Below are positions 1 through 16,204 of a DNA stretch of 64,000 nt, one piece after another (position 1 is the stretch's first letter; each line of letters starts with the position of its first letter). A program made the position numbers and the translations under genes. The notes below the pieces were generated by a model. That model searched no databases and had not been told where the DNA came from. It saw only the letters and a program-made list of their open reading frames with translations. Origin of the DNA: Lysobacter avium (GTDB lineage: Bacteria; Pseudomonadota; Gammaproteobacteria; Xanthomonadales; Xanthomonadaceae); the NCBI RefSeq assembly GCF_015209745.1, contig NZ_CP063657.1, positions 992,001 through 1,056,000 on the forward strand, read 5' to 3'.

Positions 1-260
1 GTTTGCTGCTGCAGCAGCTCGATGTGGGCCTCGCGCTGCGCGAGCGCCATCGGCCAGGCGATGCCGGCCGGTGGCGGATCGAGCAGCTGACGACGCTGGC
101 GCGCGCGCTCCTCGCCCAAGGCCTCGATGTGGCGCTCGATCTCCATGCAGGCGGCGCGTTTCGCCGCGACTTCGCGCTGGTGCTGGAGCACCAGTTGCTG
201 CGCGGCCTGGGTGCGGTGCTCGCGCAGGCGGATGAGCGTCGCCAGTGGATAGCGTTTCAT
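1..260 (-). CDS. sctO: SctO (YscO/FliJ-like) T3SS stalk protein, 3' end cut by window edge
   Basis: Reading the minus strand from an ATG at 260 gives an open frame to the window edge (86 complete codons) that begins [20 protein letters not shown]. It is rich in Arg, Glu, Gln and Ala, with the heptad-like pattern of the long coiled-coil hairpin of the YscO/FliJ family. That family is the stalk that enters the hexameric ATPase and links it to the SctV export gate. The ATG overlaps the sctN stop as ATGA, so the two are translationally coupled, as expected for sctN-sctO. Sequence identity in this family is low, so the call rests mainly on position, coiled-coil character and size. Confidence 0.75.
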
Positions 261-1594: not shown

Positions 1595-2340
1595 GTGGAA
1601 TTACCGCGCGAGGCGCCGGCGCCTTCATCCGACCCACCGGCTTCCGCCTCAGCATCGGGATCCACCGCCGGCGTGTGTGCCGCCAGCGCGGAGCGGATCG
1701 CTTCGATCTGCTGGGCGATCCCGGCGCGCACCTGTCCCGCCTCCGACACGACCACGCAGCTCAGCGGGTCCAGGCTCTCGTCATCCACCAGCTCGATCAC
1801 GCCGACAGCCGGGTGCGCCTGGCGCACGGCGCCAAGACCGGCCGTCACCGATTCGCGTACCGAGGGATGCACGCGGATCAGAAGGAACTGTTCGGCCTGC
1901 GCAGCCTCGACGGCCTCCATGACCAGTGATGGCGCAACCTGGGCCGGATCGAATCCCGGCGCCAGGCGCGCAACGATCGCGCAGGCCAGGTCAATCACGC
2001 GCTGCTGGGCCTCGCCGAGCACGCGGGCGCGCCGCTCATTGAGTGATGCGAGCTGCTCCGTCATCTGCGTCTGGGCGCGGGCGATGCCTTCGGCGTATCC
2101 CGCCGCCGCCGCTTCCTTGCGCGCCTGCTCGATCTGCTCGCTCGCCTGTGTGTGCAAGGCGTTGACCTGCTCGACCACGGCATCGACGTCGGCCAGTCGC
2201 TCCCAGGAATCCGGCGGCACGATGTTGCCCGCCAGCACGCGCTCGAAACGCCCCGGCTCCAGGACGCCAACACCGCCATGCGGCCTCCGGGTGGCCGGGG
2301 ATGTCGAGGAAAAGGTGCTGGACTGATCGTCTGAACGCAT
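1591..2340 (-). CDS. sctL: SctL (YscL/FliH-like) ATPase stator/regulator
   Basis: This 249-residue protein has a low-complexity N-terminus, a central Ala/Glu/Gln-rich helical stretch (about residues 55-105) and a C-terminal FliH/YscL domain (residues about 110-230). SctL dimers bind SctN and connect it to SctQ in the cytoplasmic sorting platform. The stop overlaps the sctN GTG start. The C-terminal 25 residues are acidic and Ala/Gly-rich and look disordered. Recognition rests on domain pattern and gene order; primary sequence is variable in this family. Confidence 0.88.
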
Positions 2341-2373: not shown

Positions 2374-2991
2374 TCAGTTGCCCGCGTGGACGGAATAGAG
2401 CTGTTGCACCGCCGAGGGAGGCAGGTGCGTCGGCGGCAACGCCTGCTCACGCGGATGCAGAAGCGCCAGCCATTCGGTGAACGCCGGATCACGCGGATGG
2501 GCCCAGGCGCGCAGTTCGGCGCAGCCGTGGCGGTCCAACAGCGAGAGCAGCCCAGGCGTGGGATCGGTTTCCTCAATCGCGGTGCGCATCGTCTGCTGCA
2601 GCCGGAGCTGCACGTCACGCGGCACCTCGCCATCCCAGACATTGCGATCCAGCGCCAGCAGGTAGCGCTTGTCGAGCGCCAGCTTCAGGCGGCGCACCGG
2701 CTCGCGGCCGACCTCTGAACGGATAGCCGGCGCGAAAGCGAGGACGCCGATGTTGCGCACCAGTGAGCGCAGCTTTTCCGGTGACCAGCGTGCTACGACA
2801 CGATCCAGCGCAGGCTTCGGAGCAGGCGCCAGCAGCGTCGAAGCCGCGCCGCGTGCGAGCGTGCGCGCCAGCAGGCGGCGTCCCAGCGGACTGGTGCGCG
2901 CTGCGACAAGCAACGTGGAATCAAATTCGTCCAGCCAGCTGGCGTCGGTGCCTTCAATCACCGTGTGCAAGCCGGGCGCCGTATCCATCAA
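2374..2991 (-). CDS. sctK: SctK (YscK/PscK-like) sorting platform protein
   Basis: This 205-residue, mostly alpha-helical soluble protein lies exactly between the sctJ lipoprotein gene and sctL, the position of yscK/pscK. SctK links the inner-membrane ring protein SctD to the SctQ pods of the sorting platform. Visible features are paired Arg/Leu helices (residues 35-95), a basic helix around VRRLKLALDKRYLLALDRNV, and a C-terminal region ending in HLPPSAVQQLY. The start overlaps the sctJ stop by four bases (ATGA). Sequence conservation of SctK is weak, so the assignment leans on synteny and size. Confidence 0.72.
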   Translation of the reverse strand: MMDTAPGLHTVIEGTDASWLDEFDSTLLVAARTSPLGRRLLARTLARGAASTLLAPAPKPALDRVVARWSPEKLRSLVRNIGVLAFAPAIRSEVGREPVRRLKLALDKRYLLALDRNVWDGEVPRDVQLRLQQTMRTAIEETDPTPGLLSLLDRHGCAELRAWAHPRDPAFTEWLALLHPREQALPPTHLPPSAVQQLYSVHAGN

Positions 2992-3764
2992 TCACTCCAG
3001 GCCGGTGGCTTTGCCTCGGCCGCTGGACTCAGACGCGCGCGCAGCTTTCCGCGGAACGCGATGCCCAGCCCGAGCAGGGCGGCCAGCACGACCGCCACCA
3101 GCGCCATCGGGCCCATCGATGACATGGCTATCGGTGCATTCGTTTGCTGGTCAGCCGCGCCCGGAGCGGCGATGGTGAAGAACTTGATGGTGACCTTGTT
3201 GACGTCGGCCAGTCCTTCAACGCTGTCCTTGATGAAGACCTTCAGGTCGGTTTCGCGGTCACGCAGCTTCGCGCCGGGGCGCTCGAAGATGATCACCGAT
3301 GCCGAGGAGTCGTTGTCGCGGCCACCCAGCGGGTCCGGCGGCGGCAGGGCGATATGCACGCGCGCTTCCACGACGCCGTCGATCCGCGACAGGGTCCGCG
3401 CGATCTCCTGCTGCAGCCCGTCCATGTAGCGCGCGCGCTCGTCCATCGCCGAGGAGACGAAACCTTCCTTCTTGAAGATCTCGCCCATCGAGCGGTAGCT
3501 GGCGTGGGGCAGGCCCTGCGAGTTGAGCACCTGCATCGCGTACGGGAAGTCGCCCCGGTTGACCCGCACTTCCCAACCCTTCTTGCTGGAGGACGGCGCT
3601 TTCTCCGATGAAACCCCGGACCCGAGCAGTGCCGCCATGACCTGGTTGGCCTGTTGCTCATCCAGCTCGTTGTAGAGCGTTACCCGGTTGCAGGCGGCCA
3701 GCAGCAGGCAGGCCAGAATGATGCAGGTGATTCGCCACGGGAATGCCCGGTTGGGAAGGTTCAT
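2988..3764 (-). CDS. sctJ: SctJ inner-membrane ring lipoprotein
   Basis: This 258-residue YscJ/PrgK-family protein begins with a lipoprotein signal peptide; the lipobox is LLAAC with the modified Cys at residue 25. Two ring-building alpha/beta domains follow, containing typical YscJ segments such as LYNELDEQQANQVMAAL and VVEARVHIALPPPDPL, then one C-terminal transmembrane helix near residues 217-237 and a short basic tail. It forms the inner ring of the basal body with SctD. A lipobox is a mark of injectisome SctJ and is absent from flagellar FliF, which helps classify the locus. Confidence 0.95.
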   Translation of the reverse strand: MNLPNRAFPWRITCIILACLLLAACNRVTLYNELDEQQANQVMAALLGSGVSSEKAPSSSKKGWEVRVNRGDFPYAMQVLNSQGLPHASYRSMGEIFKKEGFVSSAMDERARYMDGLQQEIARTLSRIDGVVEARVHIALPPPDPLGGRDNDSSASVIIFERPGAKLRDRETDLKVFIKDSVEGLADVNKVTIKFFTIAAPGAADQQTNAPIAMSSMGPMALVAVVLAALLGLGIAFRGKLRARLSPAAEAKPPAWSD

Positions 3765-3776
3765 GCGTGCTCCTGC

Positions 3777-4211
3777 TTACGACTGCTGACGGAACAATTG
3801 CTGGATGCCGTCAGAGGAACGGTTGGCAACGTTGGAGGTCAACTGCGCGGTGAACAGGAACTGGTGGCTGCGCATGGTGAGCTGAATCATCTCGCCCGGG
3901 GTGAGATCGGCACCGTTGGCGGTCAGGATCTGCGACATCGACTCGATCTTGTCCGCGCCGCCGTTGAGGCCGTCGAGGGCGCCCAGCACTGCCCGTGTTC
4001 CCTGCGATGGCTCCGATGCCGTTGGCGGCGCCACCGGCGCCGGTGCGTTCGCATTGGGCGCCGCGCCAGTGCGCTCCATCGTCGCGGCGAAATCACGCAC
4101 GTCGAACGGCGTTGCCTGCGCTTGCGACGTTTGGGTCTGCTGGGCGGGCGACAGACCTCCAGCGCCGGTTTTGGCGGCGTCGAGCGCCGATACCTGGATT
4201 GCTTCGATCAT
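3777..4211 (-). CDS. sctI: SctI (YscI/HrpB-like) inner rod protein
   Basis: This 144-residue protein has a Gln/Ala/Pro-rich, probably disordered first half. Its helical C-terminus (LTPGEMIQLTMRSHQFLFTA followed by QLTSNVANRSSDGIQQLFRQQ) matches the hydrophobic pattern of the YscI/HrpB rod family, where this segment polymerises to form the rod joining the export gate to the needle. The gene lies 12 bp upstream of sctJ and just downstream of the needle candidate, the order seen in Ysc/Psc-type operons. Confidence 0.85.
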   Translation of the reverse strand: MIEAIQVSALDAAKTGAGGLSPAQQTQTSQAQATPFDVRDFAATMERTGAAPNANAPAPVAPPTASEPSQGTRAVLGALDGLNGGADKIESMSQILTANGADLTPGEMIQLTMRSHQFLFTAQLTSNVANRSSDGIQQLFRQQS

Positions 4212-4237: not shown

Positions 4238-4561
4238 TTACTGGCGCTTGCCGAGCGTTTCCAGTGCGTGGCCGACAGCGTTCTGCGAGGTCGCCGCATT
4301 GTTGGACATGAACTGCATGCGCAGGCTCTCCGCGGTCAGCTGGACCATGTTGGAAGGCTGGTCGCCACCCGACGCGATGGCATCCGACAGCTGCGTCACG
4401 CGCGCCGCCTGGCCGTCAAGCGTCTGGCCCCAGGCGCGGGACATCGCCTCGTACCAGCTGCCGCTGTCGCCGGAGGACACGCTGCTGCGGGTGCTGCCAC
4501 TGCTCGCGGTGGCAATGAAGGTCGTGACGGGCGCGTTCGGATCGTTGGCGTTGATGCTCAT
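4238..4561 (-). CDS. sctF: Putative SctF needle subunit (divergent)
   Basis: The ATG at 4561 is chosen over an in-frame upstream start because AAGGAG lies 7 bases before it, giving a 107-residue protein beginning MSINANDPNAPVTTF. After a Thr/Ser-rich N-terminus, residues 34-107 show the needle pattern: a Trp (W36) in the first amphipathic helix, a turn with the PSN motif (69-71), and a second helix (QFMSNNAATSQNAVGHALETL) comparable to the C-terminal polymerisation helix of MxiH/YscF. It is longer than typical needles (about 80-90 residues) and divergent. Position directly upstream of sctI-sctJ-sctK-sctL, as with pscF, supports the call. An unrelated small secreted protein remains possible. 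Confidence 0.65.
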   Translation of the reverse strand: MSINANDPNAPVTTFIATASSGSTRSSVSSGDSGSWYEAMSRAWGQTLDGQAARVTQLSDAIASGGDQPSNMVQLTAESLRMQFMSNNAATSQNAVGHALETLGKRQ

Positions 4562-4589: not shown

Positions 4590-5969
4590 TTACATCCGGT
4601 TGGTGCGTGGATTGGCGGCAACGAATTGCCTGGCGACTGCATCGGTGGGGCGGGCTTCCTGCGTCTTCTTCGCAGCTTCCGCGGGCGAGGGCCGGGAGCT
4701 CTTGCTGCCGGAATCCGCGGCCGTGGCTATACCGCGGGTGCTTTCATCGCCTGACACGCCTGCCGCAGCGGGTTCATCGACCTCGACCGGCGGATCGGGT
4801 TTGACCTGGTTGACCTTGCCGTCGACCAGTGCCCACGCGGACTTGCCAATAGCGACGAGCGTGCCGCGATCATCTGGGAGTTCGGCTCCCACCGCGTAAC
4901 GCGTGCCGTCGGCGGCGAGGACGTAGGAATCGTCACCGCCCACGATCGACACGATGCGGGTCCGCTCTACCGGCACCGTTGCGCGCGGGAGTGACTTGGC
5001 GTCCTCGTCGGCGTAGTTGCGCGGGATCACGCGGTTGATGCCGGTGACGTCGATCATCGCTCGGGAAGTCGCGGCCGCGCGCAGCTTGTCCTGGTCCTCG
5101 AAACGTCCGCTCACCTCAACGTCGCCGTTGCCCAGATAGCGGGTGCGCGCGGTGATGCCCTGGCTGCGCAGCACCTCGGCGACGTCCGCGGCGACGTCCT
5201 CGCCTGTGCGCAGGTTGAGTCGGATGGGAATTTCGTTCGACTCGACATGTTGCTGGATACGGGCGCGGGAGACGCTGTCGGGCACTGTTCCGGTCAGCAC
5301 GGTCATGCCTGCGTCGTTGGTCGATACCGTGTTGTCGCCGATGTCGTAGGTGGTCACGAGTGCTGCGACCTGGTCTTCGATACTCGGGACGGGCGCTGCG
5401 GCGGGGCGCACCGACGCGTAGATACCGGCGGAGACGAGTGAAAGCACGGCCAGCCCGGCCAGTGTCCTGGACAGCCCGGGGCGCACCGCGCGTCGCGCAT
5501 TCAACGGCGTCTGCTCGACTTCATCGAGGCCGTCGGCAGGCATCCATTTTGGATCGCTGGCATCACCCACGGCAAAGCTCGCATCGCCCAATCGAACCGG
5601 GGCGCCAAGCTGCAACTCGATGGGGTCGCCCGGGTACAGCGGGTCACCGGCGAAACCGGCTGGTGCATCGATCGCCCGCAGTGCCAGTGAGTCGCCGTTG
5701 CGCAGCAGCATGGCGTGATGGGGCGCGACGCCTTCATCGGAAAGCACGATGTCGCAGTCCTCACCGCTGCCGACCAGCAGCATCTCCTGATCCCCCAGGA
5801 TCCGGCTGGCGCCGATGTGGAGGCCGGCAAGAATCCGCAGAACCAGCTTCGTGGCGGGCTTGGCAGTCATGGATTTTTCTTCTGTCCCGACCGCAGTTGC
5901 CCCGGGCTGCCGAGGCGTCTCCGGCGTAGCGGAGACCTGGTCTGGATCGGGGACGATGTCGTCGATCAT
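4590..5969 (-). CDS. sctD: SctD inner-membrane ring protein with FHA domain
   Basis: The chosen ATG at 5969 is preceded by AAGGAG with a 9-base spacer and gives 459 residues. Layout: an acidic N-terminal tail; a cytoplasmic FHA-like domain (about 40-140, with MLLVGSGEDCDIVLSDEGVA and a conserved HHAML); one transmembrane helix (about 167-187); periplasmic ring-building repeats (about 195-400); and a Pro/Ala/Ser-rich C-terminal tail. This is the YscD/PrgH architecture. The protein connects the SctJ ring to the secretin and docks SctK through the FHA domain. A start at the internal ATG at 5870 cannot be excluded. It lies between sctV and the needle candidate in one transcription unit. Confidence 0.9.
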   Translation of the reverse strand: MIDDIVPDPDQVSATPETPRQPGATAVGTEEKSMTAKPATKLVLRILAGLHIGASRILGDQEMLLVGSGEDCDIVLSDEGVAPHHAMLLRNGDSLALRAIDAPAGFAGDPLYPGDPIELQLGAPVRLGDASFAVGDASDPKWMPADGLDEVEQTPLNARRAVRPGLSRTLAGLAVLSLVSAGIYASVRPAAAPVPSIEDQVAALVTTYDIGDNTVSTNDAGMTVLTGTVPDSVSRARIQQHVESNEIPIRLNLRTGEDVAADVAEVLRSQGITARTRYLGNGDVEVSGRFEDQDKLRAAATSRAMIDVTGINRVIPRNYADEDAKSLPRATVPVERTRIVSIVGGDDSYVLAADGTRYAVGAELPDDRGTLVAIGKSAWALVDGKVNQVKPDPPVEVDEPAAAGVSGDESTRGIATAADSGSKSSRPSPAEAAKKTQEARPTDAVARQFVAANPRTNRM

Positions 5970-5997
5970 TGGAATTTCTCCTTGCATGCGTGATGCG

Positions 5998-8049
5998 TCA
6001 TGCGTTGATCTGTCCTGCCTGCGAGATTCGCAGGTCGGCTGCCAATTCCTGGTACGAAAGCACGGGCAACTCGAAGAAATCGTTCTCCAGCAGCTTGCGC
6101 AAGTGCCTGCGCACGTCCAGTGAACACAAAAGGACGGGTCGAACGGACCCGCCTTGGCGGGCCAGCTGGGTGCGCACTTCGCCGGACAGGCGGGCCGCCA
6201 GCTCGGGTGCAATGGCGAGCTGGCTGGCGCCACCGGCAACGCGCACCGACTGGCGCAGACGGTCTTCCAGCTCCGGGTGGATCAACAGCACGTGCAACGT
6301 CCGCTCGCCGTCGGCATAGCGATCTGCGATCTCCCGCTTCAGCGCCACCCGCACGTATTCGGTCAGCAGCACGACGTCCTTCTCGCGCCCGCCCACGTCG
6401 GTGATCGCTTCAAACACGTCGCGCAGGTTGCGCACCGGAATGCCTTCCTCGGCCAGGCGGCGCAGGACGTCGGCCACCCGCTGCGGAGCTACGACGCGCA
6501 GCATTTCCTTGACCAGGTCGGGGTAGTCGCGCTGCATCTTCGCGAACAGGTTGGAGGCCTCCTGGATGCCGATGAAGCCGCCCAGCCGGCGCTGCAGCGC
6601 GCGGCGGACGTGCTCGGTCAGCATCTCCAGCGGAGCGAGCGTGTCCTCGCCAGCGTCGTCCTGCCATTGGCCGGCGAGCGGCGGGTGGAAGCCCGCCAGC
6701 GCGGGGGTGTTGTCACCGCTGCTGCGTGCCGGGCGGAAGTGGGCGCCGGTACGCAGTACCCCGTTGGCCATGCGGGCACCGAACGCGGTGAGCTGGTACT
6801 CGCCGTCCCCCAGGGTGGCGTCGACGCGTGCCGTCGGCGCCGGCACCGGCACGCCGAACTCCTCGCGCAGGCGTTGGCTGATCTGGGTGAGCCCATCGAG
6901 CAGCGGCTGCTTGCCGAACTCCGCGGCAAGGCTGGGCGACACCGCAAGCTGCAACGGTGCAGGCGGAGCAAGGTCGTCGATGTCGACCGGCTGCTGGTGG
7001 CTCGCCATGGCCTCGTCGGTGACCCGGAACGCGCGCCGCAAGAGATCGTTCTGGTGCCTGTAGCGCCACGCGGCGATGGTCAACAGCGTTGCGCCCAACA
7101 GGCCGAAGACGACGGTGGGGAAGCCGGGCACGAGCATCATCAGCAAGGACAGCACGCCGGTGATGGTCAGCACCCGGGGCTGGGCGGAGATCTGCTTGGA
7201 AATCGCGTCGCCCAGGTGGCGGTCGTCTTCGATGCCGGTGGTGCGGGTCACCACCAGTCCCGCCGAGATGGCCGCCAGGATCGCCGGGATCTGTGCCACC
7301 AGGCCGTCGCCGATGGTCAGGATGCTGTAGGTCTGGGTGGCGTCGCCCAGCGACATGTCGCGCTGCAACACGCCGATGGCCAGGCCACCGAGCAGGTTGA
7401 TGATGATGATCACGATGCCGGCGATCGCGTCGCCTTTCACGAACTTCATCGCTCCATCGAGGCTGCCGTAGAGCTGGCTCTCGGTTTCCAGGTAGCGACG
7501 CTTCTTGCGCGCCTCGTCCTTGTCCAGCAGCCCGGAGCGCAGGTCGGAATCGATCGACATCTGCTTGCCGGGCATCGCGTCCAGAGTGAAGCGCGCGGCG
7601 ACTTCGGCCACGCGCTCGGCGCCCTTGGCGACGACGATGAACTGGACCACCGTGATGATCAGGAACACCACCAGCCCGACCACCAAGTTGCCGCCGGCGA
7701 CCATCGTGCCGAAGGTGTCGATGATGTGGCCCGCCTCGGCTTCCAGCAGGATCGATTTGGTGATCGCAATCGACAGCGCAAGGCGGAACAGCGTGGTCAG
7801 CAGGAGAACGCTGGGAAAACTGGAAAACGCCACCGGCGACGGGATGTAGATCGCGAGCAGCAGCAGGCCGAACCCGATCGCGATATTGAAGGCAACCAGA
7901 GTGTCGATCACCGCCATCGGCAGCGGCAGGATCATCAGGCTGATGATCAGGACGGCGGCAAAGGCCAGCACGATGTCGCTGTAGCCGCCGCGCACGCGGG
8001 GGGCTGCGCCGGCCGGCGCAGCCATCAAGGATCCGATCAGCGTGCGCAA
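5998..8049 (-). CDS. sctV: SctV export gate protein (FHIPEP family)
   Basis: This protein of about 683 residues has eight predicted membrane helices in the first half and a cytoplasmic nonamer-forming domain in the second. The FHIPEP signature is clear (KGAERVAEVAARFTLDAMPG, then KQMSIDSDLRSGLLDKDEAR), and the cytoplasmic part ends in the typical SD4 region. SctV is the major export gate that receives SctN-SctO and couples the proton gradient to export. The 8049 start is a TTG; an ATG at 8025 is the alternative and neither has a strong ribosome site. It is the first gene of the minus-strand sct operon, followed 28 bp later by sctD. Confidence 0.96.
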   Translation of the reverse strand: MRTLIGSLMAAPAGAAPRVRGGYSDIVLAFAAVLIISLMILPLPMAVIDTLVAFNIAIGFGLLLLAIYIPSPVAFSSFPSVLLLTTLFRLALSIAITKSILLEAEAGHIIDTFGTMVAGGNLVVGLVVFLIITVVQFIVVAKGAERVAEVAARFTLDAMPGKQMSIDSDLRSGLLDKDEARKKRRYLETESQLYGSLDGAMKFVKGDAIAGIVIIIINLLGGLAIGVLQRDMSLGDATQTYSILTIGDGLVAQIPAILAAISAGLVVTRTTGIEDDRHLGDAISKQISAQPRVLTITGVLSLLMMLVPGFPTVVFGLLGATLLTIAAWRYRHQNDLLRRAFRVTDEAMASHQQPVDIDDLAPPAPLQLAVSPSLAAEFGKQPLLDGLTQISQRLREEFGVPVPAPTARVDATLGDGEYQLTAFGARMANGVLRTGAHFRPARSSGDNTPALAGFHPPLAGQWQDDAGEDTLAPLEMLTEHVRRALQRRLGGFIGIQEASNLFAKMQRDYPDLVKEMLRVVAPQRVADVLRRLAEEGIPVRNLRDVFEAITDVGGREKDVVLLTEYVRVALKREIADRYADGERTLHVLLIHPELEDRLRQSVRVAGGASQLAIAPELAARLSGEVRTQLARQGGSVRPVLLCSLDVRRHLRKLLENDFFELPVLSYQELAADLRISQAGQINA

Positions 8050-8171
8050 GACAGCCCCCGGCCGTCATTGGCGAGGGCCATTCCCCGGGTATGGATCAGT
8101 GCTGCTGCATATCGCATCCGTTGCCTCTCTCGATTTGACACACGAGCGTCGCGGCGGTGCCCGGCGGCGGC

Positions 8172-8200
8172 TTTATCGTGCGTAACTTCCCGCCTTGAGC
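8172..8200 (-). promoter_or_regulatory. Candidate sctV operon promoter
   Basis: On the minus strand GATAAA (8172-8177) resembles a -10 box. The matching -35 position (8195-8200) reads GCTCAA, which is poor. That is what an activator-dependent promoter looks like, and the -35 position lies inside the 29-bp dyad. A start of transcription near 8165 would leave a leader of about 115 bases before the TTG start of sctV. Prediction only. Confidence 0.35.
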
Positions 8201-8221
8201 GTCACTATGTGACAATCAAGG
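8193..8221. promoter_or_regulatory. 29-bp dyad, candidate activator binding site upstream of sctV
   Basis: The left arm reads CCTTGA-gc-GTCAC and the right arm GTGAC-aa-TCAAGG around a TAT centre. All 22 arm bases outside the two dinucleotides flanking the inner arms pair perfectly. The centre (8207) lies about 42 bp upstream of the start of transcription predicted from the GATAAA box, the usual position for a class II activator. The FixJ-like regulator encoded 1.8 kb away is an obvious candidate ligand; that link is inference. Confidence 0.55.
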
Positions 8222-8279
8222 TCAATCGAACGTAGCCGAATGCGATCTGCAATACCAGCCTGAAGCGTGTTTTTTTTCC

Positions 8280-8314
8280 CTATCTGAGACTTTTGGACGA
8301 CGCCGTTCAGATAG
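8280..8314. repeat. Inverted repeat with perfect 8-bp arms
   Basis: CTATCTGA at 8280-8287 and TCAGATAG at 8307-8314 are perfect inverted copies separated by 19 bases. On the minus strand the hairpin is followed by GGGAAAAAAAACACG, so it is not a standard terminator for the FliO-like gene. Read on the plus strand the T-run precedes the hairpin. It may be a second regulator site in the sctV control region. Confidence 0.4.
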
Positions 8315-8394
8315 CCCGTAAGTCACTGTCCGCCTTCACTAAAAGCTAACGCGAGACTGCTGACGGTAGGGCGGGATGCGCTGGCTGCAAGGGG

Positions 8395-8838
8395 TCAGAT
8401 GCCCGGGTCCCCGGCATCCACCGCGATGTCAGCGGCGTCGAGTTCTGCTATCAGATTCAGGGATTGCGCCCCGACGCCGATCGCGAATACCCGGTCGGCA
8501 CGGGTCTTCAGTACCACCACCCGCTCGCGGGGGCCCACCGGCAGCACCTGCACGATGGACAGGGCAGCGTCGCGGCCGGTCAACTTGTAGCGGCGACGGG
8601 CGAAGAAAAGGATGGCGAACAGGCCAGCGATGACGAGAAGCAAAGGCACCACGACCGCAATCAGGTCCCACATGAATGAGCCGGACGCAGCCGCGGGCGT
8701 ACCGGCCGCGGCCGCCAGGTCGGGGTCAACGGACGTGGCGGCCTGCATCGCTGCCCGGGCAGGAAAACAGCCCAGCGCCAGTAATGACGCGGTGGCGGTC
8801 GCGATGGGGTGGCGCGGGAAGAGGGTCATGTCAGCCAT
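8395..8838 (-). CDS. FliO/MopB-like export apparatus protein
   Basis: This 147-residue protein has a signal-like N-terminus (ASLLALGCFPARAA), an Ala-rich spacer, one strong transmembrane helix (about residues 57-80) followed by RRRYKLTGRD, and a small C-terminal domain (IVQVLPVGPRERVVVLKTRA, then FAIGVGAQSLNLIAELD). The order of helix, basic stop-transfer and beta-rich domain with L-P-V-G-P-R-E-R and I-G-V matches the FliO family. In flagella FliO acts in assembly of the FliP (SctR) core of the export gate. Injectisome loci usually lack it, so its place here next to sctV and sctQRST is unusual. No other flagellar gene is in the window. Confidence 0.75.
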   Translation of the reverse strand: MADMTLFPRHPIATATASLLALGCFPARAAMQAATSVDPDLAAAAGTPAAASGSFMWDLIAVVVPLLLVIAGLFAILFFARRRYKLTGRDAALSIVQVLPVGPRERVVVLKTRADRVFAIGVGAQSLNLIAELDAADIAVDAGDPGI

Positions 8839-8939: not shown

Positions 8940-10016
8940 ATGAGCAGTGAAGTGAAAACCGCGGTCCCGCGGAAAACGACATCGCCCGACTCCTGTCCTG
9001 ACCTGCTGGCGGTTTTGGACGGGTTGCCGTTCGCGTGCGCCGCGTTTGATCCGGCCAGCGAGGGACTGGTGGGCGCCAACAAGCGCTACCTGGACGAGTT
9101 TGGTCCGCTGCCGGGGCACGTCGCGCGCGATCAGTTGCTCGCCCACTTCCCCGGCGCCAGCGACGAGGTGCGGCTGGAGCACAACGGGCGCTGGTACGGG
9201 CTGCACTGGAGCAGCATCACCACCGCCGCTGCGTCGTTGGCACTGCTGACCGCGGTCGACATCAGCGAGCGCCTGGAAGTGCTCGACTCGCACAAGAGCC
9301 AGCAGGAAAAGTTGCTGTTCACCTCGCGGATGATGTCGGTCGGTGAAATGGCGGCGACCCTGGCCCACGAGCTCAACCAGCCGTTGGCGGCGATCGTTAA
9401 CTACCTCAACGGCAGCCTGCGCCTGGTCGCGCAGGCTGGCGGCCCGGTGCAGGTGGAGCGCGCGCTGCAGGCCGCGCGCACCCAGGCGGAACATGCCAGC
9501 GCGGTGATTGCCCGGGTCCGCGAGTTCGTCCGCGCCCGCGAACCGCGCCGCTCCCCGCAGGCGCTGGCATCGATGGTCGAGACGGTGCTTGAGCTGCTTC
9601 GACTGGAAGCCGAGCGCCAGCAGCTGCGCATCGACGTGATCCTGCCACCGGTGCTGCCGTCCGCGTGGGCCGACCACGTGATGGTCGAGCAGGTGCTGTT
9701 GAACCTGGTCAAGAACGCGATCGAAGCCATGCGCGAGGTTCCCGCCGAGCGTCGTGCCCTGCGCGTGGAAGGCCGGGTCAACCTGGACGGCGACCTGGAG
9801 GTGCGCGTGATCGACCGTGGCGTCGGCCTGGCCGAGGACGAGCAGGACCAGTTGTTCTCGCCATTCTTCACCACCAAGGCCGATGGTCTGGGAATCGGTC
9901 TGGCGATCTGCCGCTCGATCATCGAGTACCACGAGGGACGCCTGTTCTTTGAACCCCATCCCGACGGCGGCAGCGTGTTCGGCTTTACCCTGCCTACGGC
10001 TCAGGGGCGGCAATGA
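8940..10016 (+). CDS. Soluble FixL-like sensor histidine kinase
   Basis: This 358-residue protein has no membrane segment. An N-terminal PAS-like domain (about 20-110, ending ALLTAVDISERLEVL) precedes a HisKA domain with the H-box at residues 140-149 (TLAHELNQPL, His143) and an HATPase_c domain with N-box (NLVKNAIEAMREV), G1 (DRGVGL), F-box (FSPFFTTK) and G2 (GLGIGLAI). This is the FixL/TodS-type kinase group and would phosphorylate the response regulator 33 bp downstream. Being cytoplasmic, it probably senses an internal redox, gas or metabolite signal; no heme-binding residue is evident. It is the first gene of the plus-strand unit leading into sctQ, divergent from the FliO-like gene. Confidence 0.9.
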   Translation: MSSEVKTAVPRKTTSPDSCPDLLAVLDGLPFACAAFDPASEGLVGANKRYLDEFGPLPGHVARDQLLAHFPGASDEVRLEHNGRWYGLHWSSITTAAASLALLTAVDISERLEVLDSHKSQQEKLLFTSRMMSVGEMAATLAHELNQPLAAIVNYLNGSLRLVAQAGGPVQVERALQAARTQAEHASAVIARVREFVRAREPRRSPQALASMVETVLELLRLEAERQQLRIDVILPPVLPSAWADHVMVEQVLLNLVKNAIEAMREVPAERRALRVEGRVNLDGDLEVRVIDRGVGLAEDEQDQLFSPFFTTKADGLGIGLAICRSIIEYHEGRLFFEPHPDGGSVFGFTLPTAQGRQ

Positions 10017-10049
10017 CGGGCCAGGCGGTTTTCCACACCGGAGGCTGGC

Positions 10050-10667
10050 ATGACTGACGTCGCTGCAATCGCAACGCTTGTCCATCTGGTCGATGACAAC
10101 GACGCGTTCCGCGAATCGATCGCATGGCTGCTGCAGACCGCGGGTTTCGAAGTGCGCGAATATGCCTCGGGGCCGCAGTTCCTCGCCGAGGTGGTGGATG
10201 CGGCCGTGACGGCGTCATCGACATCTTCGGCGCCGGCCGAATGCCTGGTGTCGGACATCCGCATGCCCGAGATGAGTGGCCTGCAGTTGCAGGCCGAACT
10301 GCGCCGTCGAGACAACGCATTGCCGCTGGTGTTCGTGACCGCGCACGGCGATGTTCCGCTGGCGGTGGAGGCGATGCGCAATGGCGCCGCACACTTCCTG
10401 GAGAAACCTTTCTCCGATGACGCGCTGATCGAGGCGATCCGCACCGCCTTGGCCAAGCCGGTAGGCGCGGCCGTGGCGCTGGCCAAGCTGACCCCGCGCG
10501 AGAAGCAGGTGCTGGACCTGGTCGTGGCGAGCAAGCCCAACAAGATCATTGCCGACATCCTCGGCATCAGCATCAAGACCGTTGAACTGCACAGGGCGAA
10601 CATGATGGCAAAGCTTGGGGTACGGTCGGTGCCCGATTTGATGAAGGTGGCACTCGGACATGGCTGA
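10050..10667 (+). CDS. FixJ-family response regulator (receiver + LuxR HTH)
   Basis: This 205-residue protein has a receiver domain with the acidic pair at D15-D16, the phospho-acceptor D69 in LVSDIRMPEMSG, the switch segment FVTAHGD and the conserved Lys in FLEKPF. A LuxR/GerE helix-turn-helix follows (LTPREKQVLDLVVASKPNK, then IADILGISIKTVELHRANMM). GGAGG lies 5 bases before the ATG. Together with the upstream kinase it forms a FixLJ-type two-component system. Its 8-base overlap with sctQ argues that it controls this secretion system, replacing the HrpG/HrpX or ExsA-type control of better-known systems. Confidence 0.92.
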   Translation: MTDVAAIATLVHLVDDNDAFRESIAWLLQTAGFEVREYASGPQFLAEVVDAAVTASSTSSAPAECLVSDIRMPEMSGLQLQAELRRRDNALPLVFVTAHGDVPLAVEAMRNGAAHFLEKPFSDDALIEAIRTALAKPVGAAVALAKLTPREKQVLDLVVASKPNKIIADILGISIKTVELHRANMMAKLGVRSVPDLMKVALGHG

Positions 10668-11781
10668 TGCGGGAAGTGGAACGATCGAGGCGAACCGGGA
10701 CGACGCCGCCGCAGCCGAGACCAAGGTCACCTCGCTGCGTGGGCGCGTGCCGTCAATCGCGGCGTCGCAGCTGCTTCCGCTGCAGGCCTTGTTCGAATAC
10801 CCGCGCCGATGGCATCTGGCCGATGGAGGCCGCCTGCTGTTCTCGCCGGGTGTACCCGATACCGGTGCCGCAACCTTCGCCATCGATGCGGACGGCACGG
10901 GCATGGCGCTGCGCCTGGACGAAGATCGGTCGGCGGAGCGTGCCGGCTTGCACTGGAGCGATTACGAGGGCCGCTCACGCGTGCTCGCCTGGAGCCTGGC
11001 CCAGGAATCCCGGCTGGCGCGCCTGAGCGAAGCGCTGGGAATGGCACTGGTACCGGTGCTGCAGGCGGCCGATGCGTCCTCCGCAGCGGTCGCGACCGAT
11101 GCGGACTCCGGGGATGTCTGGCTCGACTTCGTGGTTGAAGAGCCCGACATCCCCGACGAGCCCAAGCCGCCGGGCCTGAGCGGGCTGCTGCGCCTGCCGG
11201 TCGACAGCCTGGCGCCCCTGCTTGCGCGCGCCGGAGACCCGTACGGCGAGGATCCGCCGGTGCCACTGGGCGCCTGGCCTGGCTTGCCCGCCAACGTGGC
11301 GATTGCTTTTGCCGGACCCGATATCCCCCTTGCCGAATGGCGGACCCTCACGCCGGGCAGTGTCGTTGTTGCCGGTCGCCTGAGCGCGCCTCCGCCGGTG
11401 CACGCGTTCGCTTGCGGACGACGCTGGCCGCTGGCGTCCGACGGTCAGGGTTGGCGCGTGGACGGCCCATCAGAACCTTTGTCACCCCCTCAGGAGAGTT
11501 CCATGACCAGCAACGATGAAGCCGGCGCGCAGCCGGAAGCGGAGGCCCCGGTTGGCGGCGAGGGTATTGAGCAACTGCCGGTCCAACTGCGGTTCGAACT
11601 GGGCGAGCTCGAGCTGAGCATCGCCGAGTTGTCGGCCCTGCAACCCGGATACGTCTTCCCGCTGGCCAGCCGCCTGGAAGGCGCCAACGTGGCGATCCGC
11701 GCCAATGGCCGCAACGTCGGTCGCGGCGAGGTGGTCGCGGTCGGCGACACGCTGGGTATCCGTCTGCTGGCGTGGAGCTGA
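10660..11781 (+). CDS. sctQ: SctQ C-ring / sorting platform protein
   Basis: This 373-residue protein has a variable N-terminal region and a C-terminal SPOA (FliN/YscQ) domain (about 300-373: VQLRFELGELELSIAELSAL, later VGRGEVVAVGDTLGIRLLAW). SctQ forms the cytoplasmic pods that recruit substrates and the ATPase complex. The first SPOA copy is weakly recognisable around residues 190-270. The ATG overlaps the response regulator stop by 8 bases. The sequence from 11492 contains a good internal ribosome site and ATG (see the separate entry), as in yscQ and spaO. Confidence 0.88.
   Translation: MADAGSGTIEANRDDAAAAETKVTSLRGRVPSIAASQLLPLQALFEYPRRWHLADGGRLLFSPGVPDTGAATFAIDADGTGMALRLDEDRSAERAGLHWSDYEGRSRVLAWSLAQESRLARLSEALGMALVPVLQAADASSAAVATDADSGDVWLDFVVEEPDIPDEPKPPGLSGLLRLPVDSLAPLLARAGDPYGEDPPVPLGAWPGLPANVAIAFAGPDIPLAEWRTLTPGSVVVAGRLSAPPPVHAFACGRRWPLASDGQGWRVDGPSEPLSPPQESSMTSNDEAGAQPEAEAPVGGEGIEQLPVQLRFELGELELSIAELSALQPGYVFPLASRLEGANVAIRANGRNVGRGEVVAVGDTLGIRLLAWS
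11503..11781 (+). CDS. sctQ: Predicted SctQ short form (SctQ-C) from an internal start
   Basis: An in-frame ATG at 11503 (codon 282 of sctQ) is preceded by AGGAGAG at 11492-11498. This is one of the best ribosome sites in the locus and is better than the one before full-length sctQ. It would give a 92-residue protein made of a short acidic leader and the complete second SPOA domain. In Yersinia YscQ and Salmonella SpaO the same arrangement yields a C-terminal fragment that joins full-length SctQ in the sorting platform. Seen here: site and frame; production of the fragment is inference. Confidence 0.6.
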   Translation: MTSNDEAGAQPEAEAPVGGEGIEQLPVQLRFELGELELSIAELSALQPGYVFPLASRLEGANVAIRANGRNVGRGEVVAVGDTLGIRLLAWS

Positions 11782-11784
11782 CGC

Positions 11785-12678
11785 GTGGACTTCAGTTCCT
11801 TCTCCCCGGCGCTGATCCTCGTCACCGTCGTCAGCCTTGCGCTGGCGCCGTTCGTGGCGGTGATGGTGACCTCGTTCACCAAGATCGTGGTGGTGCTCAG
11901 CCTGCTGCGCAACGCGCTCGGGCTGCAGCAGGTCCCGCCCAACGTGGTCATCAACGGCCTGGCCATCGTGCTGTCGATCTACGTGATGTATCCGGTGCTG
12001 CTGGACACGCACGCGGCGATCACCGGTCAGGTCCAGTCCACCAGTGCGACCGCGTCGGCCACGCAACCCGGCGCGCCTGAAACCCCCGCTGCGGCCGCGC
12101 TGGCGCTGGTTCCCGGCGTCGAGGTTGCGGTGGACAGCACGGCGCAGATGCTGGGCCCGGCCGGGTCGCAGGTCGCCGCGCAATCCCAGGGCGACAATCT
12201 TGCCGAAGCTGGGGAGGCGGAAGCGGAAGCGGAGCAGGAAGGCGTCGCTGCACTGCCGCCGCTGGCACCGGGCGAGCGCATGGATACCGCCCGCCTGCTG
12301 AAGCTGGTCGAGGTGGGCAAGGAGCCGCTGCGCGGGTTCCTGATCAAGCATTCCAGCGACACCGAACGCGCGTTCTTCCTGCGCAGCGCGCAGCGGCTGT
12401 TGCCACCGGCGCGGCAGGCGGACATCTCCGCCAACGACTTCATTGTGATCGTGCCGGCCTTCACCGTCAGCGAACTCACCGCCGCATTCCAGATCGGCTT
12501 CCTCATCTTCCTTCCGTTCCTGATCATCGACCTGGTGGTCGCCAATATCCTGCTGGCGCTGGGCATGATGATGATGTCCCCCACGATCGTCTCGCTGCCC
12601 TTCAAGCTGCTGCTGTTCGTGCTGATCGATGGCTGGGCGAAGCTGGTGCACGGACTGGTGCTCACGTATGCGATCTAG
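11785..12678 (+). CDS. sctR: SctR export gate protein with unusual periplasmic insertion
   Basis: This FliP/YscR-family protein starts at GTG 3 bp after sctQ. The N-terminal helix (ILVTVVSLALAPFVAVMVTS, then FTKIVVVLSLLRNALGLQQV) and C-terminal half (VIVPAFTVSELTAAFQIGFL, later MMMMSPTIVSLPFKLLLFVL) are highly typical. At 297 residues it is about 75-80 longer than usual SctR (about 215-220). The excess lies between membrane helices 2 and 3 (about residues 84-162), is rich in Ala, Glu, Gln and Pro, and is predicted to be in the periplasm. SctR forms the pentameric core of the SctRST export gate. Confidence 0.95.
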   Translation: MDFSSFSPALILVTVVSLALAPFVAVMVTSFTKIVVVLSLLRNALGLQQVPPNVVINGLAIVLSIYVMYPVLLDTHAAITGQVQSTSATASATQPGAPETPAAAALALVPGVEVAVDSTAQMLGPAGSQVAAQSQGDNLAEAGEAEAEAEQEGVAALPPLAPGERMDTARLLKLVEVGKEPLRGFLIKHSSDTERAFFLRSAQRLLPPARQADISANDFIVIVPAFTVSELTAAFQIGFLIFLPFLIIDLVVANILLALGMMMMSPTIVSLPFKLLLFVLIDGWAKLVHGLVLTYAI

Positions 12679-12729: not shown

Positions 12730-12996
12730 ATGAACGAGGTGCTGGAGCTCACCAAGCAGGCGCTGTGGCTGGTGCTGATCCTGTCCGGACCGCCGATCGC
12801 CGCGGCGGCGATCTTCGGGCTGGTGATCGCCTTCCTGCAGGCGGCGACCCAGTTGCAGGAGCAGACCTTCGCCTACGCGGTCAAGTTGCTGGTGATCGTG
12901 CTCACGCTGTTCATCACCGCATCCCTGCTGGGCGGGACGCTGTTTACCTTCGCCGAGCGCCTGTTCATCGAGTTCCCCGGGCTGGTCAGGCGATGA
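12730..12996 (+). CDS. sctS: SctS export gate protein
   Basis: This 88-residue FliQ/YscS-family protein has two hydrophobic helices (about 12-40 and 50-75) joined by FLQAATQLQEQTFAYAVKLL, the conserved polar hairpin that forms part of the M-gate. It assembles with SctR and SctT into the export gate. Size and position between sctR and sctT are standard; 51 bp separate it from sctR. Confidence 0.95.
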   Translation: MNEVLELTKQALWLVLILSGPPIAAAAIFGLVIAFLQAATQLQEQTFAYAVKLLVIVLTLFITASLLGGTLFTFAERLFIEFPGLVRR

Positions 12997-13072: not shown

Positions 13073-13855
13073 ATGCCCTTTGACGGTGTCGGCAATGCGC
13101 TGCTGGCCCTGGCACTCACGCTGCCGCGGGTCATCGGTGCGTTCGTGATGCTGCCTTTGCTCACCTCGCAGAACATCCCGGCGATGGTGCGCAACAGCTT
13201 CCTGGTCAGTCTTGCCGTGGTGGCACTGCCGATTGCGATGGCCGGAGCGCCGATCGATGCGATGGGCGCACCCATGTGGCCGGTGATCGTGCTCAAGGAG
13301 ATCTTCCTGGGCATGGCGATCGGATTCTGTTTCGGCATGGTGTTCTGGGCGATCGGTGCGGCCGGCAACCTGATGGACAGCCAGGTCGGCATGGCCATGG
13401 CGTCGATCTTTGATCCCATCCAGGGGCACCAGGCGGCGCCCCATGGGCAGTTCCTGTCGCAATTGGCGGCCTGGCTGTTCATGGCCAGCGGCGCGTTCCT
13501 GATCTTCCTCGACCTGCTCCTGTCCAGTTACGCGCTGTGGCCGGTGATGTCCTACTTCCCGCAGATCCAGGCCGAGGGCAGGGAGCTGTTCATCGGCCAG
13601 TTCAGCTATCTGATGACCGCGCTGCTGGTGATGGCCTCGCCGGCGCTGATCCTGCTGCTGCTGGTGGATCTGTCCTTCGGACTGGTCAACCGCTACGCGC
13701 CGCAGCTGAACGTGTTCGCGCTGACGCTGCCGATCAAGGCCTGGGTGGCGACCGGGATGATCCTGCTGCTGATGGGGGTGTACGTGGAGATGGTGCTGAA
13801 GAAACTGGGTGAGAACCGCGCCCTGCTGGAAGTCCTCAACCGGGTGTTTTCCTGA
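13073..13855 (+). CDS. sctT: SctT export gate protein
   Basis: This 260-residue FliR/YscT-family membrane protein has about six hydrophobic helices. Typical family segments include the N-terminal LALALTLPRVIGAFVMLPLL, the conserved GNLMDSQVGMAMASIFDP loop and the polar SFGLVNRYAPQLNVFALTLP stretch before the last helix. It forms the SctRST core complex. It is the last gene of the plus-strand unit starting with the histidine kinase and meets sctU tail to tail with a 36-bp gap. Confidence 0.95.
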   Translation: MPFDGVGNALLALALTLPRVIGAFVMLPLLTSQNIPAMVRNSFLVSLAVVALPIAMAGAPIDAMGAPMWPVIVLKEIFLGMAIGFCFGMVFWAIGAAGNLMDSQVGMAMASIFDPIQGHQAAPHGQFLSQLAAWLFMASGAFLIFLDLLLSSYALWPVMSYFPQIQAEGRELFIGQFSYLMTALLVMASPALILLLLVDLSFGLVNRYAPQLNVFALTLPIKAWVATGMILLLMGVYVEMVLKKLGENRALLEVLNRVFS

Positions 13856-13891: not shown

Positions 13892-14956
13892 TCAGTCGCG
13901 CGAGTCGCGCACGCCCTCGGCCCAGTGCAGGACCTCGGCGACGGCCTCGAAGAACTCGTTGCTGATGTGGTCGTCCAGCGCGACCTTCTCGTGCAGCCCG
14001 CGCGCCAGTGGAATGTTCTGCAGGATCGGAACCCCGGCTTCCTCAGCTGCCTGGCGGATCATCTCGGCGGTATGGCCTTCGCCCTTGGCGACGACAATCG
14101 GCAGGTCGGTCTCGCCGTCCTGGTAGCGCAGCGCGATGGCGATGTGGGTGGGGTTGGTCACGACGACGTTGGCTCCGCGCACGGCATGCATCATGTTCTG
14201 CTGCGACCACTCCTGATGCAACTGGCGACGGCGCTGTTTGACGTGCGGGTCGCCCTCGCTGTCCTTCAGCTCCTGGCGGATGTCGCGCCGGCTCATGCGC
14301 AGGTTCTTCAGGTACGAGTACTTCTGGTACGAGGTGTCCAGCGCGGAGATGAAGAAGAACACGCAGATTGTCCAGATCACGATCCGCGACAGGCCCTGCC
14401 ACAACGCTGCGCCGATCGCCTGGGGCGGGGAGGTCGGCAGCTGGAGCAGGTCGGGAAGCATCGCGCGTACGACGATCCAGCCAATCCCGATCAGCGCGGT
14501 GGACTTGATGATCGATTTGACCAAGTCCACCAGGTTGTCCATCGAGAACATCTTCTTGATGCCTTCCACCGGGTTGAGCTTGTCCATCTTGGGTTTGACC
14601 TTCTCCCAGCTCAGCAACGGCCCCACCTGGAGGAACTCGATCAGCAGGCCCAGCATCAGCGACATCGCGAGCAGCGGCAGCATCAGCCACAGGAAGGTCT
14701 CGATCGCGGTCTGCGCCAGCAGCGGCAGGCTGGTCTCAAAGGGCTGTCCCAGGGTCGCCAGACTCTGTTCGAACAGGTTGTTGATGCGCGCGTGCATGGA
14801 GCCCACCAGCATCCATGCCGTCACCAGCCAGCCCATCACCAGCACGGTCCCGGTGAGGTCGCGGCTCTTGGAGACGTTGCCTTCCTTGCGCGCATCGAGG
14901 ATGCGTTTTCGGGTAGGGGGCTCGGTCTTGTCGGCGCCTTTGTCTTTCTCCGACAC
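13892..14956 (-). CDS. sctU: SctU autoproteolytic substrate-specificity switch
   Basis: This 354-residue FlhB/YscU-family protein begins with the family N-terminus DKTEPPTRKRILDARKEGNV and has four membrane helices between residues 35 and 215. Its cytoplasmic domain carries the self-cleaving NPTH motif at residues 268-271. SctU wraps around the SctRST gate and switches substrate class after autocleavage. Start is GTG at 14956 with GAGGG upstream. Unlike most loci, where sctU follows sctT on the same strand, it is inverted here and needs its own promoter in 14957-15141. Confidence 0.95.
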   Translation of the reverse strand: MSEKDKGADKTEPPTRKRILDARKEGNVSKSRDLTGTVLVMGWLVTAWMLVGSMHARINNLFEQSLATLGQPFETSLPLLAQTAIETFLWLMLPLLAMSLMLGLLIEFLQVGPLLSWEKVKPKMDKLNPVEGIKKMFSMDNLVDLVKSIIKSTALIGIGWIVVRAMLPDLLQLPTSPPQAIGAALWQGLSRIVIWTICVFFFISALDTSYQKYSYLKNLRMSRRDIRQELKDSEGDPHVKQRRRQLHQEWSQQNMMHAVRGANVVVTNPTHIAIALRYQDGETDLPIVVAKGEGHTAEMIRQAAEEAGVPILQNIPLARGLHEKVALDDHISNEFFEAVAEVLHWAEGVRDSRD

Positions 14957-15141: not shown

Positions 15142-15471
15142 ATGAACAGCATCGGCAACAGTCCACAACTTGATCGCGCCGGCCTGCAATCGCTCGCCGA
15201 CCGTCTTGCGCTGGATGATCCTGCACGCCATGGCGCGCAACTGCCGACTGCCACTCCTGCGATCGACGAAGCCGCAGGATTACGCAGCCACGCGCCTCCC
15301 GCTCTTGTCGATGCCGGCGAGCAGGCGCTGGGCGTGGCGGCATGGGACGGTGTGGCTGGCGGGCAGCGGATGTTGTCCAGCGACATGGCGCTTCAGGGCA
15401 TGCTCGGTCGCCTCGACCTGGCATCAGCGGTCGATGCCGGCGTCGACGCGGTAGTCGCCGCACTCGGCTGA
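15142..15471 (+). CDS. Small unrecognised protein of the T3SS locus
   Basis: I do not recognise this 109-residue protein. It is acidic, rich in Ala, Leu, Gly and Asp, has no signal peptide or membrane helix, and starts MNSIGNSPQLDRAGLQSLAD. The Ser/Asn/Gln-containing start and the helical C-terminus (MALQGMLGRLDLASAVDAGV) would suit a small secreted component or regulator. It is divergent from sctU and 55 bp upstream of another unknown gene with which it probably forms a unit. The ribosome site is weak (GAGG at 15125, spacer about 13). A role in secretion is suggested only by location. Confidence 0.5.
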   Translation: MNSIGNSPQLDRAGLQSLADRLALDDPARHGAQLPTATPAIDEAAGLRSHAPPALVDAGEQALGVAAWDGVAGGQRMLSSDMALQGMLGRLDLASAVDAGVDAVVAALG

Positions 15472-15526: not shown

Positions 15527-16204
15527 ATGAATGACATTCCTTCGTCCGACGGACTGCGCTCGGCTTCGGCCAGCCTGGTGGCAGCGCTCGCGTCGCACTC
15601 GGATCCCGAGTACCGGCTGAGCGTGCTCAAGCGGCTCGCACGCCGTCTGGGCGAAGCGCGCTATCCCGTCTTCCTGCGCATACTGGGCGTGATTGCCGAG
15701 AGCGACGATCTGCGCGCGCAGCGGCTCCTTGCCGATACCTTCGGGCTGGCGCTGCGCCGCATGGACCTGCCCGGCGGTGCCTTGAGCTCCTGGGGCGCGA
15801 CCGGCCTGCCCGACAGCAAGACGCCGGTCGCGGCCAGCACCTTTTCCGGCAACTTCTTCGGCGCCACGCCGCAACGTCTGCTGGGCCCATTGGAGTACCT
15901 GGCGGTGTGGCACCTGCAACGCACCCAGCGCCAGTTACTCGGTCGCGACGCTTTTGTACAGGCGACCTCACGTCTGGTCGCGCTGCTCAACCACAGCGAG
16001 GACGCGCGTCGGCTGTATCCGCAGAAGCTCGCCGTTGACGCCCAGAACGAGCTGGAAGGCGCCTACACCCGGACCACCCGCGAACGTCTCGCCGCCATGG
16101 CGGTCGCGTGGCAGTCGGGGAAATCGCCCGAAGAGGTGGCGCGCGCGGCGCTGGGGGTTGCTCCCGACTCACGGGAAGGGCAGTGGGTCGTCCATGATCT
16201 CTAG
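15527..16204 (+). CDS. Unrecognised helical protein at the end of the T3SS locus
   Basis: This 225-residue soluble protein is predicted almost entirely helical, with repeat-like helix pairs in the first 75 residues (YRLSVLKRLARRLGEARYPV, ILGVIAESDDLRAQRLLADT). A Gly/Ser-rich middle follows (about 80-115), then a second helical block (PLEYLAVWHLQRTQRQLLGR, later LAAMAVAWQSGKSPEEVARA). No signal peptide or membrane helix is seen. No family is recognised. Its place between the sct genes and the thrS operon, downstream of a small unknown gene, makes it a candidate secretion regulator or chaperone-like component, but nothing in the sequence proves this. Confidence 0.6.
   Translation: MNDIPSSDGLRSASASLVAALASHSDPEYRLSVLKRLARRLGEARYPVFLRILGVIAESDDLRAQRLLADTFGLALRRMDLPGGALSSWGATGLPDSKTPVAASTFSGNFFGATPQRLLGPLEYLAVWHLQRTQRQLLGRDAFVQATSRLVALLNHSEDARRLYPQKLAVDAQNELEGAYTRTTRERLAAMAVAWQSGKSPEEVARAALGVAPDSREGQWVVHDL

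Follow-up and report, generated by a model that had tools for sequence, protein, structure and literature searches.

The window analysed here is a stretch of 64,000 nucleotides of the Lysobacter avium genome. Near its left end lies an injectisome-type T3SS locus that includes a gene for a FliO-type protein. The features of the locus, with the evidence for each assignment, are as follows.

257-1594, minus strand: sctN ATPase (PF18269 T3SS_ATPase_C, 80.5 bits, over cut-off)
1591-2340, minus strand: sctL stator (TIGR02499, 60.1 bits, under 78.7; PF02108 FliH, 28.4 bits, over cut-off)
2374-2991, minus strand: sctK-like gene (position and conserved order; no family match in Pfam or NCBIfam)
2988-3764, minus strand: sctJ lipoprotein (TIGR02544, 176.1 bits, over cut-off)
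3777-4211, minus strand: sctI-like inner rod candidate (PF17001, 16.5 bits, under the cut-off of 32.4)
4238-4561, minus strand: sctF-like needle candidate, 107 residues from an internal ATG (position)
4590-5987, minus strand: sctD, FHA-type inner ring (TIGR02500, 91.4 bits, over cut-off)
5998-8049, minus strand: sctV, export gate (TIGR01399, 731.6 bits, over cut-off); next gene downstream of fliO
8395-8838, minus strand: FliO-type protein, 147 residues (Pfam FliO, hydropathy, predicted model)
8940-10016, plus strand: histidine kinase (HisKA and HATPase_c over cut-off); divergent from fliO, 101 bp apart
10050-10667, plus strand: response regulator with LuxR-type DNA-binding domain (Response_reg and GerE over cut-off)
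10660-11781, plus strand: sctQ (TIGR02551, 118.4 bits, over cut-off)
11785-12678, plus strand: sctR, enlarged, 297 residues (TIGR01102, 245.7 bits, over cut-off; alignment)
11986-12315, plus strand: SctR loop, residues 68-177, 110 residues long (mostly 35 in relatives that have the secretin SctC)
12730-12996, plus strand: sctS (PF01313 Bac_export_3, 77.3 bits, over cut-off)
13073-13855, plus strand: sctT (PF01311 Bac_export_1, 185 bits, over cut-off)
13892-14956, minus strand: sctU (TIGR01404, 386.6 bits, over cut-off)

The genes form a leftward run headed by fliO (fliO-sctV-sctD-sctF-sctI-sctJ-sctK-sctL-sctN), while rightward, across 101 bp from fliO, the kinase and response-regulator genes are followed by sctQ-R-S-T. 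The gap between fliO and sctV (8050-8394) measures 345 bp, and no usable promoter-like, terminator-like or Rfam match was found in it or near fliO. The start of sctD is taken to be an internal ATG, read from the translation. Both the name and the start of the sctF-like candidate are putative: a similar gene occupies the matching position in T3SS loci, and neither Pfam nor NCBIfam gave a family match over cut-off. For sctN, TIGR02546 reached 586.6 bits, slightly under its cut-off of 604.75. Six proteins, SctV, SctJ, SctD, SctQ, SctR and SctU, all exceed the NCBIfam T3SS equivalog cut-offs, which supports an earlier, sequence-only reading of this DNA as an injectisome-type locus. The same reading placed fliO between sctV and sctQRST. 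The gene does adjoin sctV on its upstream side, but the kinase and response-regulator genes separate it from sctQ.

Several neighbouring genes deserve mention in their own right. The kinase/response-regulator pair (8940-10667, plus strand) stands beside fliO in all 56 T3SS loci examined and is probably the local regulator. To the right of sctU, a 225-residue protein (15527-16204, plus strand) has no family match; genes similar to it are found close to sctU in 30 of 40 loci without SctC and 13 of 16 loci with it, some loci being cut short. A 109-residue open reading frame (15142-15471, plus strand), likewise without a family match, has a similar counterpart in 26 of the 40 SctC-less and none of the 16 SctC-positive loci. 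At the other end, an sctO-like frame (1-260, minus strand) runs past the left edge of the window. In L114, it is followed by an HpaP-like (SctP) gene (14104-14763, minus strand; 20 bits, under the cut-off of 23.8). Also to the left of the window, about 3 kb downstream of sctN, lies a gene (L114:11530-12354, minus strand) whose 274-residue product has a signal-like N terminus and carries a DUF6683 domain (PF20388, 57 bits). Of 40 genomes with this T3SS, 26 contain a DUF6683 match, 23 of them over cut-off, and the coordinates place it beside the T3SS in several.

Identity and layout of the FliO-type protein

The open reading frame begins with ATG and encodes 147 residues. In the Pfam search, residues 79-139 matched PF04347 FliO (38.1 bits, E 1.7e-9; gathering cut-off 22). 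The NCBIfam model TIGR03500 FliO gave 40.3 bits, under its equivalog cut-off of 55.25, so the protein is treated as a member of the FliO family and is not filed as flagellar FliO. When a profile of T3SS-borne FliO was compared with a profile of flagellar FliO from the same family of bacteria, the two matched over 82 columns (probability 96.2, E 2.1e-9). Judged by these profile matches, the protein is a FliO homologue; the Pfam check that had been proposed thus came out in favour of the suggested homology. No credible FliO match was found in the PDB.

The layout described beforehand (signal, helix at 57-80, small domain) is borne out by hydropathy and by structure prediction. The highest-scoring 19-residue hydropathy windows, 59-77 to 62-80, mark a single strong transmembrane segment. 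A second, less pronounced hydrophobic stretch, located within about residues 11-37, is compatible with a signal sequence. The AlphaFold model, built from 54 sequences and of middling confidence (mean pLDDT 67), contains a helix spanning 55-84, the block values for residues 51-80 being 81-94, and four strands (94-100, 106-111, 117-122 and 127-133) that form a small beta domain. Together, they give an N-terminal part, a single membrane helix at about 57-80 and a small C-terminal beta domain, as in FliO. The motif LPVGPRERVVVLK begins at residue 99, and V101, G102, P103, R104 and R106 are invariant across 54 aligned relatives.

Distribution and origin of the T3SS-borne fliO

Among 297 genomes of the family, SctV of this type occurs in 39 (at least 74% identical to that of the window and at least 1037 bits, next best 401) and FliO of this type also in 39 (at least 130 bits, next best 45), draft genomes among the sample being liable to miss a gene. 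The two sets of genomes are identical. In each of the 39 genomes, fliO precedes sctV on the same strand, and the gap between the matches ranges from 217 to 493 bases (median 357). A sister family of the same order contributes 13 further T3SS, with SctV 60-65% identical, and FliO is in the matching place in all 13 loci found through SctV, of which 12 are new, L161 and L075 apparently coming from one and the same genome. The proposed search for the same gene in related T3SS loci was therefore positive in every family genome with this SctV and in every sister-family locus.

A scan of named genome records, limited to the best 80 of 107 loci, included 43 (L034-L076) in which FliO lies between the kinase gene and the sctV of this T3SS, without exception. 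As these loci were found with FliO as the query, only their gene order is informative. The other 37 of the best 80 are called flagellar by gene order and low similarity, not by individual flagellar models. With the sister family included, the position between kinase gene and sctV holds in 56 of 56 T3SS loci (43 + 13). The FliO profile scores 74-145 bits in all 16 SctC-positive loci and 61-86 bits in all 37 flagellar-like ones. In more distant T3SS, the profile found no FliO at the 9 loci covered, several of which are on short contigs; 7 of 11 non-own matches were covered. The best candidate there, at 14.5 bits, proved to be a STAS domain. Within the order Lysobacterales (Xanthomonadales), the FliO-type protein is a fixed component of one non-flagellar T3SS lineage.

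The L. avium genome, assembled as one contig of 2.85 Mb, contains one FliO over the cut-off. Since its one FHIPEP gene is sctV, FlhA and a complete flagellar export gate are absent. Rather than being encoded with flagellar genes, fliO adjoins sctV in a genome without FlhA. Chance, an assembly error or a stray flagellar cluster is rejected as an explanation, given the lack of FlhA and the constant fliO-sctV adjacency across genomes and loci.

The phylogenetic comparison with flagellar FliO, another of the checks proposed, was carried out at the level of the family, on 123 FliO domains and 97 columns. The 56 T3SS copies form one clade of their own (99/88) that spans two families, and 30 flagellar copies of the own family form a separate clade (100/98). 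Six genomes contain both a T3SS and a flagellar copy. These results bear on the notion that the gene is vestigial or was recently captured from a flagellar fliO of the same lineage. In its favour, FliO is a flagellar family, the own genome lacks FlhA while some relatives have flagellar genes, and a topology in which T3SS and family flagellar FliO are held together against the rest was not rejected (AU p 0.19). Against it stand the two distinct clades, obtained on only 97 columns, and the genomes with both copies. In addition, the invariance of V101 to R106 in the 54 relatives argues against decay. Taken as a whole, the notion is very improbable. The separation of the T3SS clade from the family's flagellar FliO makes a recent local capture, in particular, unlikely on phylogenetic grounds. 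The earlier statement that the lineage "kept or acquired" the gene can be narrowed to that extent; either inheritance from a flagellar ancestor of this T3SS or a single acquisition would agree with the FliO tree.

Secretin loss and the enlarged SctR

Two genes of the L. avium genome encode secretin domains, assigned by NCBIfam to PilQ and GspD. The PilQ gene adjoins pilMNOP and the GspD gene adjoins T2SS genes; since both sit beside pil or T2SS genes, a hidden SctC elsewhere in the genome is rejected, and the system of the window has no T3SS-type secretin SctC. Of 40 genomes carrying this T3SS, 2 have a match over cut-off to the SctC model TIGR02516, the own genome not among them. The two are Coralloluteibacterium (L069) and Rudaea (L075), in both of which sctV and sctD flank sctC. 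Judged by similarity to the Rudaea SctC, the gene has the same position in L076 and in 13 of 13 sister-family loci, and none was found by this similarity in any of the 40 SctC-less loci. For L057, L059, L065 and L076, the secretin was looked for at the locus only. The 38 SctC-less genomes, the own one included, divide equally into 19 with exactly two secretin-domain matches and 19 with three to five; no secretin match in the 38 is over the SctC cut-off (best 143.1 against 238.45 bits). Genomes with extra secretin-domain matches may make use of a borrowed outer-membrane pore. DUF6683 is not favoured as a secretin replacement because it is also present in the SctC-positive genome G329.

The absence of the T3SS secretin from five Lysobacter strains was described by de Bruijn et al. 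in 2015 (PMC4657364, in the part of the text available). For Lysobacter Hz25, a 2026 paper (PMC13163355) names the secretin encoded at the T2SS locus as that of the T3SS. For GspD at the T2SS locus of the own genome, a dedicated T3SS role is not favoured; its use may be shared with the T3SS.

In a tree of SctV, SctN and SctT with 56 rows, the 41 SctC-less systems form one clade (SH-aLRT 99), which has the SctC-positive Coralloluteibacterium as its sister and is nested among SctC-positive systems. The simplest reading of this tree is that SctC was lost once, within SctC-positive relatives. An ancestral absence of the secretin, as in a primitive T3SS of the Myxococcus type, is not what is seen, the SctC-less clade being nested with support of 99.

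The same systems differ in SctR. The SctR loop, measured from the second conserved hydrophobic segment to the GKEPLR motif, presumably lies on the periplasmic side, given the known topology of SctR/FliP. In the 15 of 15 SctC-positive loci measured, it comprises 35 residues in 13, 40 in one and 52 in one. In 37 of 40 SctC-less loci, it comprises 102-162 residues, the other three being cut by contig ends; with the window, where it has 110, measured SctC-less loci number 38. The extra part is rich in Ala and Pro (81% P, A, T, S, G, Q, E or D). A poor structure model of SctR (mean pLDDT 56) is least confident at residues 89-156, below pLDDT 50, and has no helix or strand at 93-167. Over the aligned columns, 15 relatives are 69-91% identical to the SctR of the window. 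Rough start calls give a median FliO length of 154 residues in the SctC-less against 129 in the SctC-positive group, a slightly longer SctQ in the former and little difference in most other T3SS proteins; such lengths contain start-codon errors, with outliers such as an SctR of 342 residues in an SctC-positive locus.

The sequence-only reading linked FliO to SctR, suggesting that the factor was there "perhaps for its enlarged SctR". The two do coincide in the window and likewise in the remaining SctC-less loci, where FliO is also somewhat longer by the rough start calls given above. However, FliO is present in all 15 SctC-positive loci with a loop of only 35-52 residues, and the SctV, SctN and SctT tree places the enlargement later. 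The suggestion is contradicted: FliO occurs on both sides of the change in SctR, so its presence is not explained by an enlarged SctR. That FliO was kept or adapted in order to handle the enlarged protein can hardly be upheld. FliO was already present before the secretin was lost.

Absence of the secretin and a long SctR loop match perfectly in the sample, and by the tree both changes fall on one branch. As a result, they amount to a single coincidence and not to repeated evidence. One speculative reading, to which little probability is given, is that in the Lysobacter/Luteimonas branch SctR gained about 65-125 Ala/Pro-rich and probably disordered residues as the secretin went, that the loop does part of the secretin's job or reflects re-use for periplasmic export, and that FliO, present beforehand, was retained as gate assembly factor. 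If this were true, the loop might, for example, guide or lengthen the channel through the periplasm or dock onto a different outer-membrane pore, GspD and PilQ being candidates; in the re-use case, the machine would now deliver its substrates to the periplasm. No text linking the SctR loop to secretin loss was found in the literature covered (open access with few subscription papers, preprints aside), and the coupling of the two on the same branch may be new. The larger question concerns the working of a conserved injectisome once its own outer-membrane channel has gone. For this question, the match between secretin absence and the SctR loop is a testable starting point, and this correlation is the part worth following.

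Likely role of FliO and comparison with known systems

Flagellar FliO protects FliP and promotes the FliP-FliR complex with which export-gate assembly starts, and it is undetected in completed basal bodies, according to the available part of PMC5542435. By analogy, we infer an assembly-chaperone role for the T3SS-borne FliO at the SctR/SctT export gate. The FliO-type protein would stabilise SctR and help it assemble with SctT, after which SctS, SctU, SctV and the SctJ and SctD rings would join and the FliO-type protein would be released. The system of the window belongs to a sub-clade that has lost SctC and in which, on the same branch, SctR gained its long Ala/Pro-rich loop. The protein is thus likely, with good though not full confidence, to be a FliO-type single-pass inner-membrane assembly factor, fixed in one Lysobacterales T3SS lineage and most probably serving as a chaperone of the SctR/SctT gate. 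The injectisome is described as lacking FliO in the accessible text of PMC5542435; well-studied injectisomes assemble SctR without it, so such a chaperone is no general requirement. The passages covered contain no experiment on a T3SS-borne FliO.

A different client, or a lasting structural role such as stabilising SctU or SctV or anchoring the gate, has a modest probability, well below that of the chaperone reading. The gene adjoins sctV, not sctR, in every locus examined. In Campylobacter, FliO affects the stability of FlhB rather than other export proteins (PMC12403147, in the text available), which makes SctU the main alternative client. Against this, sctQ and sctR begin only about 1.8 and 2.9 kb from fliO, within the same locus, and the classical function of FliO concerns FliP and FliR (PMC5542435, available in part).

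FliO has long been described as specific to flagellar export gates, and here it is the strict partner of one injectisome lineage. FliO-aided gate assembly is therefore open to study in a non-flagellar setting, namely in environmental bacteria, of which some have both a T3SS and a flagellar copy.

The presence of FliO in Lysobacter/Luteimonas-type T3SS is already known. A 2025 study (PMC12403147) reports FliO from the non-flagellar T3SS of Myxococcota and of several orders of Pseudomonadota, Xanthomonadales included, and names Luteimonas huabeiensis (WP_024891899.1) and L. arsenica. The earlier statement that FliO has no standard counterpart in injectisomes is out of date in this respect. The Luteimonas huabeiensis FliO belongs to the same gene family and the same kind of locus, the contig of strain HB2 (L048) being among those that show the arrangement described here. 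The 2025 study reports the presence of FliO; gene order, the single clade, secretin loss and the SctR loop are unmentioned in its available text. For Lysobacter antibioticus 76, fliO is listed among three "flagellar" genes (PMC9410377, partial text) and may be this T3SS gene. In L. enzymogenes, flagellar-type export proteins have been considered in connection with twitching (PMC7277350), and FliO is not mentioned in the part available.

Compared with flagellar FliO of Salmonella, which is bitopic with a cytosolic C-terminal domain (available text of PMC5542435), the protein described here has a matching family and profile. In Salmonella, however, fliO adjoins fliP, whereas the gene of the window adjoins sctV in a genome without FlhA and its product falls in a separate clade. 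The Lysobacter T3SS of de Bruijn et al. (PMC4657364) is presented, in the text available, with no mention of FliO; the secretin absence reported there is here found in 38 genomes and interpreted as a single derived loss. The T3SS of Myxococcus resembles that of the window in having FliO and lacking a secretin (PMC3459982 and PMC12403147, both available in part). In PMC3459982, the Myxococcus-type systems are placed at the base and also lack SctF, and their ancestor is read as secretin-less, whereas the secretin loss in the lineage of the window is derived, having arisen within SctC-positive relatives.
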